Below are positions 10,405 to 17,387 of a stretch of DNA of 64,000 nucleotides, in pieces; position 1 is the first letter of the stretch, and each line of letters opens with the position of its first letter. The notes beneath the pieces are model-generated. The model saw only the letters and a list, made by a program, of their open reading frames with translations, ran no database searches and was not told where the DNA came from. The position numbers and the translations under genes are program-made. This stretch comes from Haloarcula marina (GTDB taxonomy: Archaea > Halobacteriota > Halobacteria > Halobacteriales > Haloarculaceae), in assembly GCF_024218775.1 (NCBI RefSeq), contig NZ_CP100404.1:2232001-2296000 (forward strand), read 5' to 3'.

Positions 10405-10815
10405 ATGCCGTTCGAACTCCGTACTCATACCGCCGACATCGCCGTCGAAGCCACGGGGCCGACGCTCGGCGCGACGTTCGCCGCCGTCGCCGACGGCCTC
10501 GCCGCGGCGATGTGCGATGCGATACCCGACGACGGCGACCGGTTCGAAGTGACAGTCAGCGCCGAATCCCGCGAGGCGCTCCTGTTCGACTACCTCGACC
10601 GACTCATCTACGAGCGGGACGTTCGGAACGTCCTCCCGACGGACAACGAGGCCAGCGTCGAGGCGGGCGACGGCGACTGGCGCGTCGACGCCAGCGCCCG
10701 CGGCGTCCCGCTGTCTGCGGTGACTGCCCGGGAAATAAAGGCGGTCACGTACTCCGAGATGGCCGTAGGAGAGACCGAGAAGGGGTGGCGCGCCTACGTC
10801 GTCTTCGACGTCTAG
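10405..10815 (+). CDS. Archease, RtcB ligase cofactor
   Basis: A 136-residue archease. The N-terminal HTADIAVEA signature is at residues 7-15, and the C-terminal SEMAVGETEKGWRAYVVFDV-type ending carries the conserved acidic metal-binding tail. Archease activates the RNA ligase RtcB by promoting its guanylylation, and so supports tRNA exon ligation and RNA repair. RtcB is not in the window. The ATG at 10405 is chosen because the upstream in-frame extension reads through the halocyanin gene in another frame. Its stop overlaps the stop of the convergent membrane/zinc-ribbon gene by four bases. Confidence 0.93.
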   Translation: MPFELRTHTADIAVEATGPTLGATFAAVADGLAAAMCDAIPDDGDRFEVTVSAESREALLFDYLDRLIYERDVRNVLPTDNEASVEAGDGDWRVDASARGVPLSAVTAREIKAVTYSEMAVGETEKGWRAYVVFDV

Positions 10816-12065
10816 CCGTCCAGCCGTTCGCCGCAGTCCGGGCAGAACGTCGGCGTTCGGTCGGCGGGCAGTTCCGTGCCGCACTCGTCACAGGTGCGGT
10901 CCCCGGCGAATCCGGCCCGGTCGGGCGAGAAGACGGCCGTGTCCTCGAACGGGTCGTCCTCGCCCTCGTCCTCGCCCTCGTCCTCGCCCTTGTCGTCAGT
11001 GGACAGATCGTCGACGGCGGCCAGCGCGGTATCCGCTTCGGCGGCGTCCGCGGCGTGGCCCGGCGAGAACACTCGGGTACTCGAGTCGTCGTCCCCGGTT
11101 GTCCCATCCGGTGCCGGACCGTCCGACACCGCCGCGTCCTCGACTGCCCCCGTCGGCGCGTCGGTGGACTCGGCAACTGCATCGGCGTCGTGGGTCGCCG
11201 TGCTCTCGTCCCGCCCGCCTGTCGGCGGCCCCCCACCACCGGACGCGTGCGCCCCGGGCCGCATCGTCGGGAACCGCTGTCCGGCCCGACGAGTCGGGTT
11301 TTCGAGCGGTGCGCGGCGGCGGACGGCGGCCCCGGCGGCGGTCTGTGCAAGCAGGTAGCCGCTCGCCAGAACCGCCGGTACCGAGACGAGAGCCGGCAGC
11401 GCGATGCCGCTGTCGACCCCGGCCACGGTGAGGCCTATCGAGACAACACCCGAGACGCCGCTCGCCGTCGCGACTTCGGCGAACTGCTCGCTCAGTCCCG
11501 CCAGCGCGGTCGCGTGGACGAGCCACGCCGCACCCAGCGCGACGGCAGACACCCAGCGGACGGCGCCGAACAGACGGGGAACCGACAGCGCGTACACGCG
11601 GTAACCGTACGCGATAGTTCGAACGAGGAGGTGGACACTCGCCACCAGCGCGACGGCCGTGAGCGGTGCGGACCGACCGACCGTGAGCGATGCGACGAGA
11701 CAGCCGAGCATGACCAGCCCCGGCGGCGCGAGTAGTGTACTCGGGTGGTCGAGGCGATAGCGGGAGGCGAGGTTGCCGGTCTGGTTCAGAAACCGGCCGC
11801 CCGTGAGTCGGGACGCGACCAGCGCGGGGAGCACGAGCCACAGGACGACGGCCGCGGCCGCGAGGCCGGTCACCGCTTCGCCGCCGACGGTCGCGAGTGT
11901 ACCGTCGGCGAATCTCGGTGCGAACCGCCGCAGGCCGATGCCAGATGCGGCGACCCACGCGCCGTACGCCAGATAGCCGAGGCCGCCGCCGACGGCGACC
12001 CACCACTCGCTCCGCAACAGCGCGAGGGACCGTCGAAACTCCGAGCGTGGAAGGCGAGTCGACAT
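10812..12065 (-). CDS. Membrane protein with TxVFSP motifs and zinc ribbon
   Basis: A 417-residue protein, last gene of the VWA/kinase/phosphatase/FHA operon and 31 bases after the FHA gene. Residues 1-245 hold about six hydrophobic segments (near 22-42, 64-84, 112-128, 133-152, 168-188 and 205-240). A long acidic disordered region follows, then a C-terminal zinc ribbon (C392, C395, C408, C411). The linker has two copies of the same motif, STRVFSPG (T330) and DTAVFSPD (T376). Threonine before VF resembles the ETTSVF phospho-site of actinobacterial GarA, which FHA domains read. It may therefore be the kinase substrate and FHA anchor of the operon. The function itself is not known. Confidence 0.72.
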   Translation of the reverse strand: MSTRLPRSEFRRSLALLRSEWWVAVGGGLGYLAYGAWVAASGIGLRRFAPRFADGTLATVGGEAVTGLAAAAVVLWLVLPALVASRLTGGRFLNQTGNLASRYRLDHPSTLLAPPGLVMLGCLVASLTVGRSAPLTAVALVASVHLLVRTIAYGYRVYALSVPRLFGAVRWVSAVALGAAWLVHATALAGLSEQFAEVATASGVSGVVSIGLTVAGVDSGIALPALVSVPAVLASGYLLAQTAAGAAVRRRAPLENPTRRAGQRFPTMRPGAHASGGGGPPTGGRDESTATHDADAVAESTDAPTGAVEDAAVSDGPAPDGTTGDDDSSTRVFSPGHAADAAEADTALAAVDDLSTDDKGEDEGEDEGEDDPFEDTAVFSPDRAGFAGDRTCDECGTELPADRTPTFCPDCGERLDG

Positions 12066-12096: not shown

Positions 12097-13218
12097 TCAG
12101 GAGGTGTGGACGGTCAACGTCGCCACCCCGGACAGTTCGATTTCGTCGCCGGGGGCCACCGGTTCCCGGTCGCCCTTCTGGAGCATGCGCCCGCCGAGTC
12201 GGGTCGGGTTGTCGCCCAGGTCGACGAGGTAGAAACTGTCGGATTCGCGCACGAAGCGGACGTGTTCGCGGTGGATGCGGACCGCCTCGTCCTCGGGCCG
12301 TCCCGCGTCTGTCAGCGCCGCCCGGACTTCTCGTCCCACTGTGTCGCCGTCTCTAACCTCGATTTCACGCCCGCTCACCTCCAGCACCAGCGACTCGGGG
12401 ACCGATTCGTCGTTCGACGCGCGGAGCGCGTCGACGGCGTCTGTCTCGTCGTCCTCGGTGTCGCCCGAGCGATGGACTTCGAGGTCCTCGCCGCAGTTGA
12501 CGCAGAAACTGTCCGTCTCGTCTACGCCCGTCCCGCAACTCGGGCATTCCGTCAGCGGTTCGACGGGCGCGACATCCTGAACGTCGGCCCCGCAGTTCGC
12601 ACAGAAGTTGGCGTCGCCGTCGAGTTCGGTCCCGCAGTCCGGGCATTCGAGAGTGTCCGCGGCGTCTGCGTCTGCGCTGTCCTCGCCCGCCGAATCCCCC
12701 TCGTCGGGGCTCTCGACGCCTGTTTCCTCGGGCGGACTCGATGCCTCCGTGTCCGACTCGACGTCCGCAGACGGGTCGGCGGCTTCCGCATCTGCTCCGA
12801 CGGGGTCGGTGTCGCCCCCGTCCTCGGTGTCGAGGTCAACCGGGTCGACCGCTTCCGCGTCCGTCGCCGCGGCCTCCGTGTCGTCGGTCGTCGATTCCGT
12901 ACCGTCCGGTTCCTCGGCGACGCTCTCCTCGGAACTCGTCTCGTCGGCGTCTTCCGCCTCGCTGTCCGCTTCCGAATCGCCCCCGTCATCCGCCGCCAAC
13001 TCCTCGTCCGCCGACCGCTCGGTCCCCTGCGAGATGAGGTTCCCCTCGCTCTCTTCCTCGTCCGATTCGGAGTCCGCGTCCCCCGCGTCGGCTGCGTCGT
13101 CCGTGTACTGCCACTCGCCGCAGTCCGTGTTCGTACACCACCCGCCCGCTATCGCCGGGTCGAACGCTTCCCCGCAAATCGGGCACTCAACTGACTGTTC
13201 CGTGTTGGCGTCAGACAT
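12097..13218 (-). CDS. FHA-domain protein with three zinc ribbons
   Basis: A 373-residue protein. An N-terminal zinc ribbon (C12, C15, C28, C33) is followed by a very acidic disordered linker (about 38-185), two further zinc ribbons (CPDCG...CANCG and CPSCG...CVNCG, about 188-245) and a C-terminal FHA-like domain (about 275-373; IHREHVRF, VDLGDNPTRLGG, GDEIEL). FHA domains bind phospho-threonine peptides, so this is the likely reader of the kinase encoded two genes upstream. The ATG at 13218 is chosen because the longer upstream frame is arginine-rich and lies opposite the phosphatase gene. It is 49 bases after the PP2C gene in the same operon. Confidence 0.83.
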   Translation of the reverse strand: MSDANTEQSVECPICGEAFDPAIAGGWCTNTDCGEWQYTDDAADAGDADSESDEEESEGNLISQGTERSADEELAADDGGDSEADSEAEDADETSSEESVAEEPDGTESTTDDTEAAATDAEAVDPVDLDTEDGGDTDPVGADAEAADPSADVESDTEASSPPEETGVESPDEGDSAGEDSADADAADTLECPDCGTELDGDANFCANCGADVQDVAPVEPLTECPSCGTGVDETDSFCVNCGEDLEVHRSGDTEDDETDAVDALRASNDESVPESLVLEVSGREIEVRDGDTVGREVRAALTDAGRPEDEAVRIHREHVRFVRESDSFYLVDLGDNPTRLGGRMLQKGDREPVAPGDEIELSGVATLTVHTS

Positions 13219-13267: not shown

Positions 13268-14362
13268 TCATTCCTCGGTGAACATGACCGTCTCGCGGTC
13301 CGTGATATCGACAGCCGGGTCGACCGCGCGGACCGGTAAGCCCCCGTTAGTCGGCGTCGCCGGGAGCGTCGCATCGTCGAACAGCAAGACCGAGATGTTG
13401 TCTTTCCCACCTCGCTCGTTGGCGAGGGAGACGTACCGCTCGGCGGCCGCGTCGAGGTGGTCGGCGTCCAGCAACACGTCGCGGATCTCGTCGTCGGTGA
13501 CGACGGCGTCGAGAACGCGGTCGGCCGCCTCGTCGGATTTCCTCGACTCAACGTACGCCTCGTACAGATTCGGCGCATCGGTCTGGGCGTCGATGAGACC
13601 GTCGCTCGTAACCAGAACGGTGTCCTCCGCGAACAGTCTGACCGTCCGCGTGTCCACGTCGACGGTCGCTCGCTCGGCGTCCTCGTGGCCGGACCCGCCG
13701 AGAGCCCGGGTAATCTCGTTGCCGTTGGGGTGGACGTGCGCCTCGACGGCGTCGATTTCCCCGGCGTCTTCCCACTGTTGGACGACGGCGTGGTCTTTCG
13801 TCAGGCGGACGATTTCCTCGCGGGCGCTGTTGACCAGATAGGCGCGACTGTCGCCGACCCATCCGAGGTGGAGTTTGCCGTCGGCGTAGACGCCCGCGAC
13901 GACGGTGGTGTACGACTGGGTTCCCGACTCGCTCGCGTAACGGAGTATCTCGCGGTGAGTCTCGACGACGGCCTCTTCGATGGCTTGCTGTACGTCTTCC
14001 GGTCCGAGTGTCTCCGGCAGGACCCCGGCGTCGATGTCCAAGTCAAACGTGTCCGGATGGGTCCGAACCGCCCGAATCGCGACCGGCGCGAGTCGTTCCG
14101 CGAGGGCGGTGGTCGCGATGTACGAGGCCGCGTCGCCCGCGTCGTGGCCGCCCGCGCCGTCCGCGAGGACGAACGCGGCGGCCGAGCGGTTCGCGGGGCG
14201 GCCGTCCGCATCTTCACGTTCCTCTGATTCACTTGCCACCCGCGTCTGCCCCAGGTAGCCCTCCCGATGCCCCTCCTCGAAGACGGTGATAGAGACGCTG
14301 TCTTCGTTGATTCCCGCGCCGCGCTTCCGGTCGCCGATGTCGTAGTTGGTGCTGTATCGCAT
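13268..14362 (-). CDS. PP2C-family Ser/Thr phosphatase
   Basis: A 364-residue PPM/PP2C phosphatase. The metal-binding motifs are in family order: NEDS near residue 20, ADGAGGHDAGDAAS near 67, GWVGDSRAYL near 168, TSDGLID near 254 and a final DNISVLLFD near 325. It should remove phosphate from Ser or Thr residues, most simply those added by the kinase encoded two bases upstream, with which it is surely co-transcribed. The ADGAGGH in place of the usual ADGMGGH is a mild variation. Together with the kinase and the VWA protein it forms a TerY-P-like triad. The extra C-terminal ~30 residues after the last motif are unassigned. Confidence 0.93.
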   Translation of the reverse strand: MRYSTNYDIGDRKRGAGINEDSVSITVFEEGHREGYLGQTRVASESEEREDADGRPANRSAAAFVLADGAGGHDAGDAASYIATTALAERLAPVAIRAVRTHPDTFDLDIDAGVLPETLGPEDVQQAIEEAVVETHREILRYASESGTQSYTTVVAGVYADGKLHLGWVGDSRAYLVNSAREEIVRLTKDHAVVQQWEDAGEIDAVEAHVHPNGNEITRALGGSGHEDAERATVDVDTRTVRLFAEDTVLVTSDGLIDAQTDAPNLYEAYVESRKSDEAADRVLDAVVTDDEIRDVLLDADHLDAAAERYVSLANERGGKDNISVLLFDDATLPATPTNGGLPVRAVDPAVDITDRETVMFTEE

Positions 14363-14364
14363 GG

Positions 14365-15597
14365 TTACTCGGAGTGGAACTCGAACGTGACCCCGTAGGT
14401 GGGGTGGACCAGCGAGACGAGGTCGCCGTCGCGGAGGCGAATCGACTCCGGCGGGACGTTCCCGTGTCGGTCGGTCGGGTCCTCGCCCTCCCGCCGCAGT
14501 CGCTCCCGCCCCGTCTCACACAGGACGCGCTGCCACCCCGACCCCTTCTGGACGAACGTCCCGTTCAGGCTTCGGTCGACGAGGTACCAGTCGTCGCCCT
14601 TCGTGTCGAACTGGACCTGCACCGACGAGATGTACTCTCCCTGCGGGTCGTCGATGGTGATGGACGCGGGCGGCCCGCTTGCGCCCGCCCGGCCGATGGT
14701 GTCGCCGGGTTCGACCGCGAAAGTCTCGTCGGCCTGGATGTACCGGACCGAGGCCGTCGCCGGTGGCGTCGGGTCCTTCGCTTCCAGCACGTCCCGAAGG
14801 ACCGTCGCGTTCCGGTAGCGGTGGCGGTAGTCCGACTGCGTCGCCCGTTCGACGATTTCCGCGAGGTAGTCGTCGCAGTCGGCCCCGAAGTCGTGGGGGT
14901 TGACGCCGTCTTTCTTCGGGACGCTCCCTTTCAGCAGGAAGAGCAGGATTTTCCCGATGGAGTACACGTCCGACCACGGTCCCTGTCGCACGTCGCTCCG
15001 GCTTGCTTCGGCGACTTCGCGGGGCTTGAACGGGCCGAGAATGGTCGTGCCGCTGTTACCCGTCGACGGGTCGCCCGCCGCGTCGAACCCCGTCGCCGTG
15101 TTGAAGTCGATGAGCGTCGGCGTGATGTCGGGCGTGAGCATCACGTTCTCGGGTTTCAGGTCACGGTAGACGATTTCGTTCTCGTGGAGGAAGCCCATCG
15201 CGTCCGCGAGGTCGATGCCGATTTGCCGGACTCGCTCGGTGTCCTCTATCGGCCCGTGTTGCTCGATAACCTCGTCGAGTTCGATACCGCCCGCGACGAG
15301 TTCGACCACGAGAAACGGCGTGTCGCGCTCCTCGACGGTGTCGTACAGCGCCATCACGTTCTCGTGGCCGCCCGCCGCGGCGATGCGTTCGAGCGACTCG
15401 GCCTCCTTCTCGAAGTACTCCTCGATGATGCCAACGTCGTTGCGGGACTCGCTGTAGTTCGGGTGTTTCACCACCACGTCGCGGCCGGTCTGCCCGTCGA
15501 CCGCCCGGTAGGCCTTCGCGAACCCCCCCTGTCCGAGGAACTCTCCGAGTTCGTATCGACTGCCGATTACGTCGCCCGGTTCGGGTTCCCACGTCAT
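14365..15597 (-). CDS. Ser/Thr protein kinase with C-terminal FHA domain
   Basis: A 410-residue soluble kinase. The glycine loop is GQGGFAKAY at residues 22-30 and the catalytic lysine is K44 (VVVKHP). The catalytic loop YRDLKPENVML lies near 143-153. The magnesium motif is DFN (LIDFNTATGF, near 163) instead of DFG, which is unusual but keeps the aspartate. Residues about 285-405 form an FHA domain (GDTIGRAG, YISSVQVQF, VDRSLNGTFVQ), so the kinase can dock on phospho-threonine. There is no membrane segment. It lies between the VWA gene (53-base gap) and the PP2C gene (2-base gap). Activity is predicted, and substrates probably include operon partners. Confidence 0.93.
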   Translation of the reverse strand: MTWEPEPGDVIGSRYELGEFLGQGGFAKAYRAVDGQTGRDVVVKHPNYSESRNDVGIIEEYFEKEAESLERIAAAGGHENVMALYDTVEERDTPFLVVELVAGGIELDEVIEQHGPIEDTERVRQIGIDLADAMGFLHENEIVYRDLKPENVMLTPDITPTLIDFNTATGFDAAGDPSTGNSGTTILGPFKPREVAEASRSDVRQGPWSDVYSIGKILLFLLKGSVPKKDGVNPHDFGADCDDYLAEIVERATQSDYRHRYRNATVLRDVLEAKDPTPPATASVRYIQADETFAVEPGDTIGRAGASGPPASITIDDPQGEYISSVQVQFDTKGDDWYLVDRSLNGTFVQKGSGWQRVLCETGRERLRREGEDPTDRHGNVPPESIRLRDGDLVSLVHPTYGVTFEFHSE

Positions 15598-15650: not shown

Positions 15651-16835
15651 TCACTTCTGGATACCCTCGTCGGTGACGATTTTCGTCGCATCGCTCTGTT
15701 CCTCGCGGCCGCCCTCCATCACCATCTCTGTCTGTCGTTCGGCCGATTTGACCGCCCGCGTGTCCGCGCCGTGAATCTGGGTCATCCGCTCGATTTGGGT
15801 CTGGGCCTCGGCGACGTTGCCCTTCCCCAGTTCCGTCTGGATGACCGTCTGCCGATGGTCGAGGTCGACTTCCTCGTTGTGCTCGCCCAGTTTCTCGGCG
15901 TCGTCGGTGTACTCGACGGCTATCTCGCCGGTCGCCGTCTCGCCGCTCGCGGTGAGCGTCACGTCCGCGAGCGTGACGGTTTCTCCGACTTCGTTCTGGG
16001 GTGCGTGAATCTTCAGGACGACGCGCTGTGTCTCGCGGTCCAGCAGGTCCGGAAGCTTCACCACCGCCGAGTTGTCCCGCCACCCCGGTCTGACCTGCTG
16101 TGTCTGCGGAAGCGCGCGGTACACCTCGCTCACCTCGACGCCGTCGGCCACGTCGAGTTCGAGTTGCGCGTCCGGCGCGACGACGGTTCCGGCCTCCTCG
16201 ACGGCTTCGCCGAAGAAGTCCTCGATGTCCCCGGGCGCGGCGAGGTGGGTCCACTCGCCGCGGGCCGTCGACCCCAGCGTGCGAATCGTCTCCTCGCGGT
16301 ACTCCTCGCCGATACCCGCCGACTTGATGCGGATACCCGCCTCGTCTATCTCCCGTGCGAGCGCCTCGAACTCCTCGGGACCGTTCGTGTTGTCCTTGCC
16401 ATCCGACAGCAGGAGTATCCGCCGGGCCGTGTTCCCGTCGTTGGGGAGGTGGTCGAGCGAGTCCGCGGCCACCGCGAGTCCGCTGTACATATCTGTGCCG
16501 CCGCCCGCCGCGATGTCGTCGAGGCAGTCCATCGCCTCGTCCCGAGTGATACCTCCCCATCGGGTCGCTTCGAGCGCGACAGTTACCTCGGTGTCGAAGG
16601 CGACGATGGAGAGGTAGTCGTCGTCCTCCAGCAACCCGAACACCCACTCGGCCCCCGCCCTCGCGCGCTCGATGTCGTCGCCCGCCATCGACCCGCTCGC
16701 GTCGATACACAGCGCGATTTGTCGGGTCGGCCGCGCCGTCTGTTGTCCCGGCTCGACCTCTATCTCGGCGGTGAGTTTCGCCCCCGACGCGGGGACGGAC
16801 GGCCGGTTAACGTCGGTCACGACGTTAGCTGTCAT
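15651..16835 (-). CDS. VWA-domain protein, TerY-like, first gene of signalling operon
   Basis: A 394-residue protein whose VWA domain (about 35-205) has an intact MIDAS: DASGSMAG near residue 45, GGGTDMYSG near 111 with the conserved Thr, and LLLSDGKDN near 143. A beta-rich domain follows (about 215-320), then a C-terminal helical segment rich in Q, E and T. There is no signal peptide, so it is cytoplasmic. VWA domains bind partners in a metal-dependent way. The order VWA-kinase-PP2C parallels the bacterial TerY-phosphorylation triad. A TATA-like box at 16861-16868 lies about 27 bases upstream of the ATG, indicating a leaderless or nearly leaderless operon mRNA. Confidence 0.87.
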   Translation of the reverse strand: MTANVVTDVNRPSVPASGAKLTAEIEVEPGQQTARPTRQIALCIDASGSMAGDDIERARAGAEWVFGLLEDDDYLSIVAFDTEVTVALEATRWGGITRDEAMDCLDDIAAGGGTDMYSGLAVAADSLDHLPNDGNTARRILLLSDGKDNTNGPEEFEALAREIDEAGIRIKSAGIGEEYREETIRTLGSTARGEWTHLAAPGDIEDFFGEAVEEAGTVVAPDAQLELDVADGVEVSEVYRALPQTQQVRPGWRDNSAVVKLPDLLDRETQRVVLKIHAPQNEVGETVTLADVTLTASGETATGEIAVEYTDDAEKLGEHNEEVDLDHRQTVIQTELGKGNVAEAQTQIERMTQIHGADTRAVKSAERQTEMVMEGGREEQSDATKIVTDEGIQK

Positions 16836-16958: not shown

Positions 16959-17387
16959 ATGACCGTCGTCAGTGTCTCCATGCCGGAGTCGCTACTGGAA
17001 CGCATCGACGAGTTCGCCGAGGAACACGGCTACACCGGCCGCAGCGAGATTATCCGCGAGGCCAGTCGGAACCTACTCGGCGAGTTCGAGGACAAGCGTC
17101 TGGAGGGGCGCGAACTGATGGGCATCGTCACCGTCCTCTTCGACTACGACACCACCGCCGTCGAGGAGAAGATGATGCACCTGCGCCACGAACACGAGGG
17201 ACTGGTCGCCTCGAACTTCCACAGTCACGTCGGCGAACACCGCTGTATGGAACTGTTCGTCTTAGAGGGCGACTTGGCGGAGATTTCGACCTTCGTCGGA
17301 AAGATTCGAGCGACGAAAGACACCCTCAACATCGACTACTCCGTGGTCCCCGTCGACGAGTTCGGGACGCTCACCGACGTCGAATAG
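16959..17387 (+). CDS. nikR: NikR-type nickel-responsive regulator
   Basis: A 142-residue CopG/ribbon-helix-helix regulator. The N-terminal ribbon-helix-helix ([19 protein letters not shown]) binds DNA, and the C-terminal ACT-like domain binds nickel. The four square-planar ligands of E. coli NikR (H76, H87, H89, C95) correspond here to H77, H88, H90 and C96 with identical spacing. Nickel-bound NikR normally represses nickel uptake genes, but none are in the window. The neighbouring divergent operon encodes the VWA/kinase system, which shares the intergenic region and may be a target; that is an inference. Confidence 0.9.

Follow-up and report, generated by a model that had tools for sequence, protein, structure and literature searches.

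A conserved T-x-[VI]-[FY] motif, a candidate phosphothreonine docking tag, in a haloarchaeal kinase/FHA operon and in related clusters

Ser/Thr kinases are common in archaea and, to our knowledge, few of their targets or readers are known. The docking of phosphothreonine (pThr) on FHA domains is already known, as are ArnA and ArnB of Sulfolobus, and FHA domains are described as preferring pThr (PMC6509490; this and the other papers named by PMC number are cited here from excerpts). Like the locus described below, the Sulfolobus system has a zinc-finger/FHA protein (ArnA) and a three-domain VWA protein (ArnB); in Sulfolobus, the C-terminal threonines of ArnB are phosphorylated and then read by FHA (PMC6509490, PMC12852372). 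The Arn module includes the kinases ArnC and ArnD and a PP2A phosphatase, and ArnC consists of an OB and a TPR-like region followed by the kinase (PMC12852372). In the system of mycobacterial GarA and corynebacterial OdhI, which operates with PknB/PknG, a Thr-x-Val-Phe peptide is read by an FHA domain, as we propose here; however, GarA carries peptide and FHA in one protein and controls metabolic enzymes, whereas in our case the tag and the candidate reader are separate (PMC8546545). In the mycobacterial PknB system, FhaA uses its FHA domain to bind pT382 in the C-terminal tail of CwlM (position 385 being Phe), and the partition of CwlM between membrane and cytosol depends on this FhaA-bound tail (PMC6180346). 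GarA T22-S-V-F25 and CwlM pT382/F385 have a T-x-x-F shape in common with the tag described here (PMC8546545, PMC6180346), but the proteins of the CwlM/FhaA system are unrelated to those of our locus and serve a cell-wall function, and the excerpts describe no transferable tail shared by multiple proteins (PMC6180346).

Two further systems share parts of the gene content. Haloarchaeal FHA proteins are tied to Ser/Thr kinases in the Halo_FHA ESCRT loci, whose authors suggest recognition of phosphorylated cargo; those loci differ in having Vps4/ESCRT-III with an FHA/CdvA-like fusion, and a docking motif is not described in the excerpts (PMC10936438). Kinase, PP2C, and standalone vWA genes are also adjacent in some actinobacterial neighborhoods, but these are GTPase-centered conflict systems, for which the excerpts describe no FHA tag (PMC7159879). 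In the portions of the open-license literature consulted, searched among other things for archaeal FHA motifs and for a Haloarcula phosphoproteome, we found no description of the tag, of the membrane protein that carries it, or of tag-bearing islands; the open-license literature likewise yielded no report of phosphorylation or binding for the proteins of the operon.

The window analyzed is a stretch of 64,000 nucleotides from Haloarcula marina. Based on the window annotation and a domain scan, five minus-strand genes form one operon, in the order VWA, kinase-FHA, PP2C, ZnR-FHA, and a membrane protein, hereafter MEM (Table 1). An earlier reading of this DNA from the sequence alone (the sequence-only reading) had placed two FHA proteins and a kinase in the operon. 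All are present, although one of these FHA proteins is the kinase, and the PP2C phosphatase and the VWA protein, which that reading did not mention, are encoded there as well. The start of ZnR-FHA was placed at the ATG of MSDANTEQ, and the kinase is 82-85% identical to its matches in four named Haloarcula/Halomicroarcula genomes. In our interpretation, MEM is probably a six-helix anchor bearing T-x-[VI]-[FY] phosphothreonine docking tags that the operon kinase writes, FHA reads, and PP2C erases.

Some features of the surroundings can be mentioned here. Divergent from the operon is a plus-strand gene for a ribbon-helix-helix regulator (16959-17387), which we take to be NikR-like from its sequence and which possibly controls the operon. 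A convergent plus-strand ORF, presumably archease-like, ends at 10815 and shares 4 bases (10812-10815) with the end of MEM. A defense-system identity for the operon was considered and rejected, as the PADLOC matches come via the kinase only.

Table 1. Coordinates of the operon genes and of their domains and motifs in the window
Feature	Position	Strand	Remarks
MEM, 417 aa	10812..12065	-	Six predicted TM helices, disordered acidic cytosolic tail, C-terminal zinc ribbon
MEM C-terminal zinc ribbon (C392, C395, C408, C411)	10821..10892	-	Zn_ribbon_3 E 0.0015, under cut-off
MEM motif 2, DTAVFSPD, residues 375-382	10920..10943; T376 codon 10938-10940	-	Genus-level duplicate
MEM motif 1, STRVFSPG, residues 329-336	11058..11081; T330 codon 11076-11078	-	T330 in 55/55 rows
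ZnR-FHA, 373 aa, with a zinc ribbon and an FHA domain at the C-terminus (ArnA-like candidate reader)	12097..13218	-	
FHA domain of ZnR-FHA	12100..12390	-	Pocket Arg, His (replacing Ser), Arg, Asn conserved
PP2C-type phosphatase (putative eraser)	13268..14362	-	PP2C_2 2.4e-9; Stp1/PP2C 8e-42, under curated cut-off
PP2C C-tail motif ETVMF (T358)	13280..13294	-	T358 44/44
Hanks-type Ser/Thr kinase fused to FHA (putative writer and reader)	14365..15597	-	Pkinase 1.2e-29, FHA 4.5e-7
FHA domain of kinase	14545..14700	-	R303, S324, N345 invariant
VWA, ArnB-like three-domain protein	15651..16835	-	Domain scan, sequence and structure matches
VWA tail motif ATKIV (T384)	15675..15689	-	T384 44/44, V387 44/44
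VWA tail motif QTEMV (T369)	15720..15734	-	T369 44/44, V372 44/44

By hydropathy, MEM has six hydrophobic helices, and the positive-inside rule puts both ends, tail included, in the cytosol. The predicted model, which is weak (pLDDT 54, four sequences), has helices at residues 7-47, 67-92, 108-129, 133-153, 163-188, and 219-251, and is disordered over residues 252-389 (pLDDT < 50). Searches with the membrane domain against Pfam, NCBIfam, and PDB folds returned no match. The domain scan found no FHA in MEM, which carries the peptide type only, so that it does not have the GarA/OdhI family combination of FHA and ETT peptide in one small protein. All four zinc-ribbon Cys are present in 35 of 37 representative rows of the MEM alignment. 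In genus g13 (L165, L171), the MEM orthologs stop soon after TKVF/TKIF and the zinc ribbon is absent. At two loci (L146:10431-11653, from G022, and L002), MEM lies in two overlapping frames with recognizable halves, the second with both motifs, owing to either a frameshift or a sequencing error.

The sequence-only reading had singled out STRVFSPG (T330) and DTAVFSPD (T376) in the 417-residue MEM, 46 residues apart, and both motifs are indeed found at these positions. Its comparison of T-x-VF with the ETTSVF of GarA also holds at the motif level (GarA T22-S-V-F). A family-wide search matched MEM in 57 of 146 genomes; two short matches (G046, G129) were excluded, leaving 54 loci which, with the window, make 55 alignment rows. 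(The short match in G046 has no T motif ahead of its zinc ribbon.) T330 is identical in all 55 rows, and each also has T-x-[VI]-[FY] at this site (TRVF in 36, TRVY in 12, TKVF in two, and TQVF, TGVF, TEVF, TRIY, and TKIF in one each). Among the 37 rows below 80% identity, T330 is the sole invariant column of the linker. The mean pairwise identity of 36 representatives is 0.79 in the motif versus 0.40 in the zinc ribbon, 0.36 in the TM part, and 0.12 in the linker. T376 occurs in 27 of the 30 rows from the genus (25 with F, two with Y) and in none of the 25 rows outside it, all of which have the kinase. Thus, the persistence that was to be expected wherever kinase and FHA are kept is seen for T330 but not for T376 outside the genus. 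Since T330 is found everywhere and T376 only in the genus, T330 is, as far as the alignment indicates, the ancestral site and T376 a later, genus-level duplicate. A PP1-type RVxF phosphatase docking motif was also considered for this site and rejected; such motifs have a spacer residue between V and F, which the TRVF of MEM lacks.

Two FHA domains in the operon are candidate readers. That of the kinase has the canonical Arg/Ser/Asn pocket, with R303, S324, and N345 each present in 46 of 46 sequences. In ZnR-FHA (numbered here on a 368-aa form), the pocket consists of R291 (49/50), H311, R312, and N332 (each 50/50), so that the entire family has His at the canonical phosphate-binding Ser position (50/50), and Ser stands at that position in 9/9 f7/f8-type ZnR-FHA homologues listed (L175-L182, L188). 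ArnA, too, deviates one position on, where its Arg-147 replaces the Asn normally found (PMC6509490), and R312 is the equivalent Arg of ZnR-FHA. Of the 25 ZnR-FHA orthologs scanned, 15 have a Pfam FHA match, that of the window itself being below detection. When the ZnR-FHA profile was compared with solved structures, the best FHA match was GarA, including its pThr22 form, with a marginal E of 0.005, and the zinc part weakly matched 8s05_C (E 0.05).

The likeness to the Arn module extends to ZnR-FHA and VWA. ZnR-FHA combines zinc and FHA parts in one protein, and the VWA model has the vWA domain, beta-sandwich, and C-terminal helical bundle of the Arn type. It matches ArnB (8S05, the structure of the ArnAB complex) and a paralogue (5A8J) over the full length, both (8s05_A, 5a8j) being among the top six Foldseek hits, with alignments of 386-395 columns. 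Against 8S05, the TM score is 0.59-0.60, for a model of moderate quality (pLDDT 67.5), and the sequence match to ArnB has an E of 9e-7. The enzymes are of other kinds: there is a kinase-FHA fusion and a PP2C here, with no kinase of the ArnC type and no PP2A. Two more differences from Arn are the single operon that these genes share with a tag-bearing membrane protein and the absence of a known link to the archaellum, whose expression the Arn module controls.

Threonines of a similar kind occur in the tails of two other operon proteins. In VWA, T369 lies in [QE]-T-x-[IML]-V and T384 in A-T-[KRQ]-[IV]-V, and in PP2C, T358 lies in R-x-T, each in 44 of 44 sequences. These invariant threonines are followed at +2 by a hydrophobic residue, whereas +3 is variable (V, M, I, F, and others, with polar residues or Gly in some PP2C tails), which makes the tags looser than the MEM motif. 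Because the VWA and PP2C tails bear the same type of tag, the operon can be read as comprising writer, eraser, readers, and tagged partners. In clusters of other families, the VWA tail ends in TTVV[YF] in nine (L175-L182, L188) and lacks this ending in L173, L174, L185, L186, and L187.

The distribution of the genes was evaluated in the same 146 genomes, 57 of which have the kinase (counted at E <= 1e-60). MEM and kinase occur together in 54 genomes, of 55 with MEM and 57 with kinase. The three genomes with kinase and no MEM (G082, G101, G104) all have distant kinases. Only G020 has MEM without kinase; VWA is also absent from it, and its ZnR-FHA profile matches are weak and cover only the zinc part or the linker. 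At this locus (L145), MEM adjoins the NikR-like gene, which in other loci comes before VWA, so that the remaining four operon genes look excised. The second site is missing here and the first has become TGVFTQ, which may represent degradation after the loss of kinase, VWA, and ZnR-FHA, although T-x-V-F is still kept; the case is a single one and no more than suggestive. In nearly all loci, ZnR-FHA and MEM are direct neighbors, and L154 and L155 have the two together with the kinase elsewhere in those genomes.

The docking-site proposal of the sequence-only reading is, as a whole, partly supported, and it missed that the motif occurs beyond MEM. Clusters L173-L188 contain kinases of other families or distant kinases and were picked by kinase similarity alone; genes in the fetched loci were called with a crude composition score. 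The 112 non-core neighbor genes of these clusters hold 56 x-x-[VIL]-[FYM] sites with disordered surroundings, and Thr leads 25 of them versus 3.9 expected (nine of the 25 are from one protein). In the flank control, which used all 359 non-core genes of L119-L172 and a cluster distance of 6.5 kb, Thr leads 10 of 159 sites versus 9.9 expected. A gene resembling the multi-TM/zinc-ribbon protein of L179 is present in L175-L182 and L188, and in 9/9 the zinc ribbon is preceded by T-[RQ]-I-F (the L175 protein has only 259 aa and is a weak match). As in MEM, a disordered tail, the motif, and a zinc ribbon are found in these proteins, with weak sequence similarity; hhalign of MEM with the f7-cluster multi-TM tagged protein, a single comparison, gave a probability of 56 and an E of 1e-4.

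A search with a profile built from the motif and zinc ribbon of 18 tails gave 26 matches in the G082 genome and 13 in that of G383, and many of these lie around the kinase clusters. In the islands of G082, G383, G343, and G147, the tag lies within the last 110 residues in 29 of 97 non-core genes. Thr is first in 38 of 65 island sites (6.5 expected), Ser in three (5.1 expected), and the reversed motif occurs twice; the figure for Thr is biased upward, as L253-L256 were fetched via tail-profile hits, and the L173-L188 count is the cleaner test. Controls gave 6/118 (6.7 expected) for 378 flank genes and 2/15 (0.8 expected) for 45 window genes. The f7/f8-type clusters gave only 4/15 (0.8 expected), as several of their MEM-like genes escaped the gene caller. 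The N-terminal parts of 20 tagged proteins scanned are unrelated, with domains that include PQQ propellers, HEAT repeats, DnaJ, cold-shock, TBP, and pentapeptide repeats, or with no match. In many tails, the motif is located just ahead of a zinc ribbon, and many others end in the motif without one (in L254, L255, L256, and L185). The island tails and the MEM rows both show Thr rather than Ser with a hydrophobic or aromatic residue at +3, as is characteristic of FHA ligands, and the strong preference for Thr over Ser in independent tails (38 vs. three) fits FHA reading.

Other explanations of the motif must be weighed. One is chance, or the composition of acidic, Thr-rich linkers: the motif is short, and T, D, E, and S abound in the linkers of haloarchaea. 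However, 54 of 54 delimited MEM linkers carry T-x-[VI]-[FY], versus 1.15 expected when each linker is shuffled, and the MEM motif is therefore not due to chance (L147, with TEVF, was dropped from this calculation because the QRxP anchor is absent). With T330 as the only invariant linker column, and with low counts for the reversed and Ser-first controls, this explanation is already contradicted and retains next to no probability. A phosphorylation-independent short linear motif, with strand pairing to a zinc ribbon or to the VWA beta-sandwich and Thr kept for packing, would accommodate the frequent position before zinc ribbons and the retention of T-x-V-F in G020, where the kinase is absent. 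The ArnA zinc finger, moreover, binds ArnB directly in unphosphorylated ArnAB (PMC12852372). We nevertheless think such a motif improbable, given the many tails without a zinc ribbon and given that the tag is concentrated around genes for kinase, phosphatase, and FHA proteins, with no excess in flank genes.

If the threonine is a phosphosite, it might instead be read by a non-FHA partner (the VWA metal site or helical domain), or it might alter tail charge or turnover. The kinase and phosphatase encoded with MEM, the ability of the VWA metal site to take acidic ligands (PMC6509490), and the atypical His-for-Ser pocket of ZnR-FHA are all consistent with this. We judge it rather unlikely, however, in light of the hydrophobic/aromatic class retained at +2/+3 in 55/55 MEM rows and of the three Ser versus 38 Thr in independent tails, the signature of FHA reading. 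A sub-case of FHA docking, compatible with it, is that the tag recruits substrates mainly to the kinase's own FHA (for priming or processivity) and that ZnR-FHA has no role. This is a possibility that we hold tentatively, as the full canonical pocket in the kinase, versus His for Ser in ZnR-FHA, speaks for it, but ZnR-FHA is a neighbor of MEM in nearly every locus, and the pair stays together in L154 and L155, where the kinase lies elsewhere in the genome.

Under the FHA docking interpretation, the operon kinase would phosphorylate T330 of MEM and, in this genus, T376, and the FHA domain of the kinase or of ZnR-FHA would bind pThr together with the aromatic residue at +3. The kinase would also phosphorylate the tails of VWA (T369, T384) and PP2C (T358) for binding by FHA domains, so that phosphorylated writer, eraser, readers, and tagged partners would gather at the membrane, until PP2C reverses the phosphorylation of the MEM tag and releases the assembled module. 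What the sequences show is conservation, the domains present, the residues of the FHA pockets, the co-occurrence of the genes, and a recurrence of the tag that is specific to Thr; phosphorylation, FHA binding, the pairing of FHA with tag, and the signal output are inferred. Counting against docking are the T-x-V-F retained by a MEM without kinase (G020), the His for Ser in the ZnR-FHA pocket, the looser motifs of the VWA and PP2C tails, and the absence of T376 outside the genus.

More broadly, we lean slightly toward a transferable C-terminal pThr tag, [DEN]-T-x-[VI]-[FY], that conscripts unrelated proteins to an FHA/kinase/PP2C/VWA hub, with MEM as the minimal membrane-anchored case. The clients would then, on balance, be beta-propellers, HEAT arrays, DnaJ, cold-shock, TBP, and multi-TM proteins, with the tag often beside a zinc ribbon. 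The locus joins a kinase, a phosphatase, candidate readers, and a predictable tag, and the tag would allow candidate clients of an archaeal kinase to be listed from sequence alone and tested in tractable Haloarcula. If the transferable tag is real, it amounts to a phospho-linear-motif signaling code in archaea; if the client islands are real, archaea own a modular phospho-tag system of a kind thought typical of eukaryotes and actinobacteria.

In the genome of the window itself, the DNA pattern T-x-[VIM]-[FY]-x-P, which is blind to the VWA and PP2C motifs, has 32 matches; two are the MEM sites, and none of the other 30, read in frame, was judged to be in a disordered tail (only three were judged to lie in long plausible ORFs). 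Fragments of this genome with 108 genes, a pattern-picked and thus biased set, have Thr first in three of 24 sites (1.4 expected). One tail-profile hit in this genome, the gene at 366954, was rejected: its zinc ribbon lies upstream and its tail is without the motif.

The island of G082 (L253, L174, L254) covers ~50 kb around a kinase/FHA/VWA/PP2C cluster and includes many proteins of unrelated domain content with T-x-[VI]-[FY] at their ends, frequently followed by a zinc ribbon. The second island, in G383 (L255 and L187), has tagged cold-shock, PQQ propeller, HEAT, and TBP-domain proteins. In L173 (12720-16001, minus strand), a HEAT protein encoded by a 1094-aa ORF has an acidic C-terminal tail with about nine SE-T-[IL]-IM-xP-type repeats, resembling SETIIMQPG, and one DTRVFDP, and is possibly a multivalent FHA scaffold.
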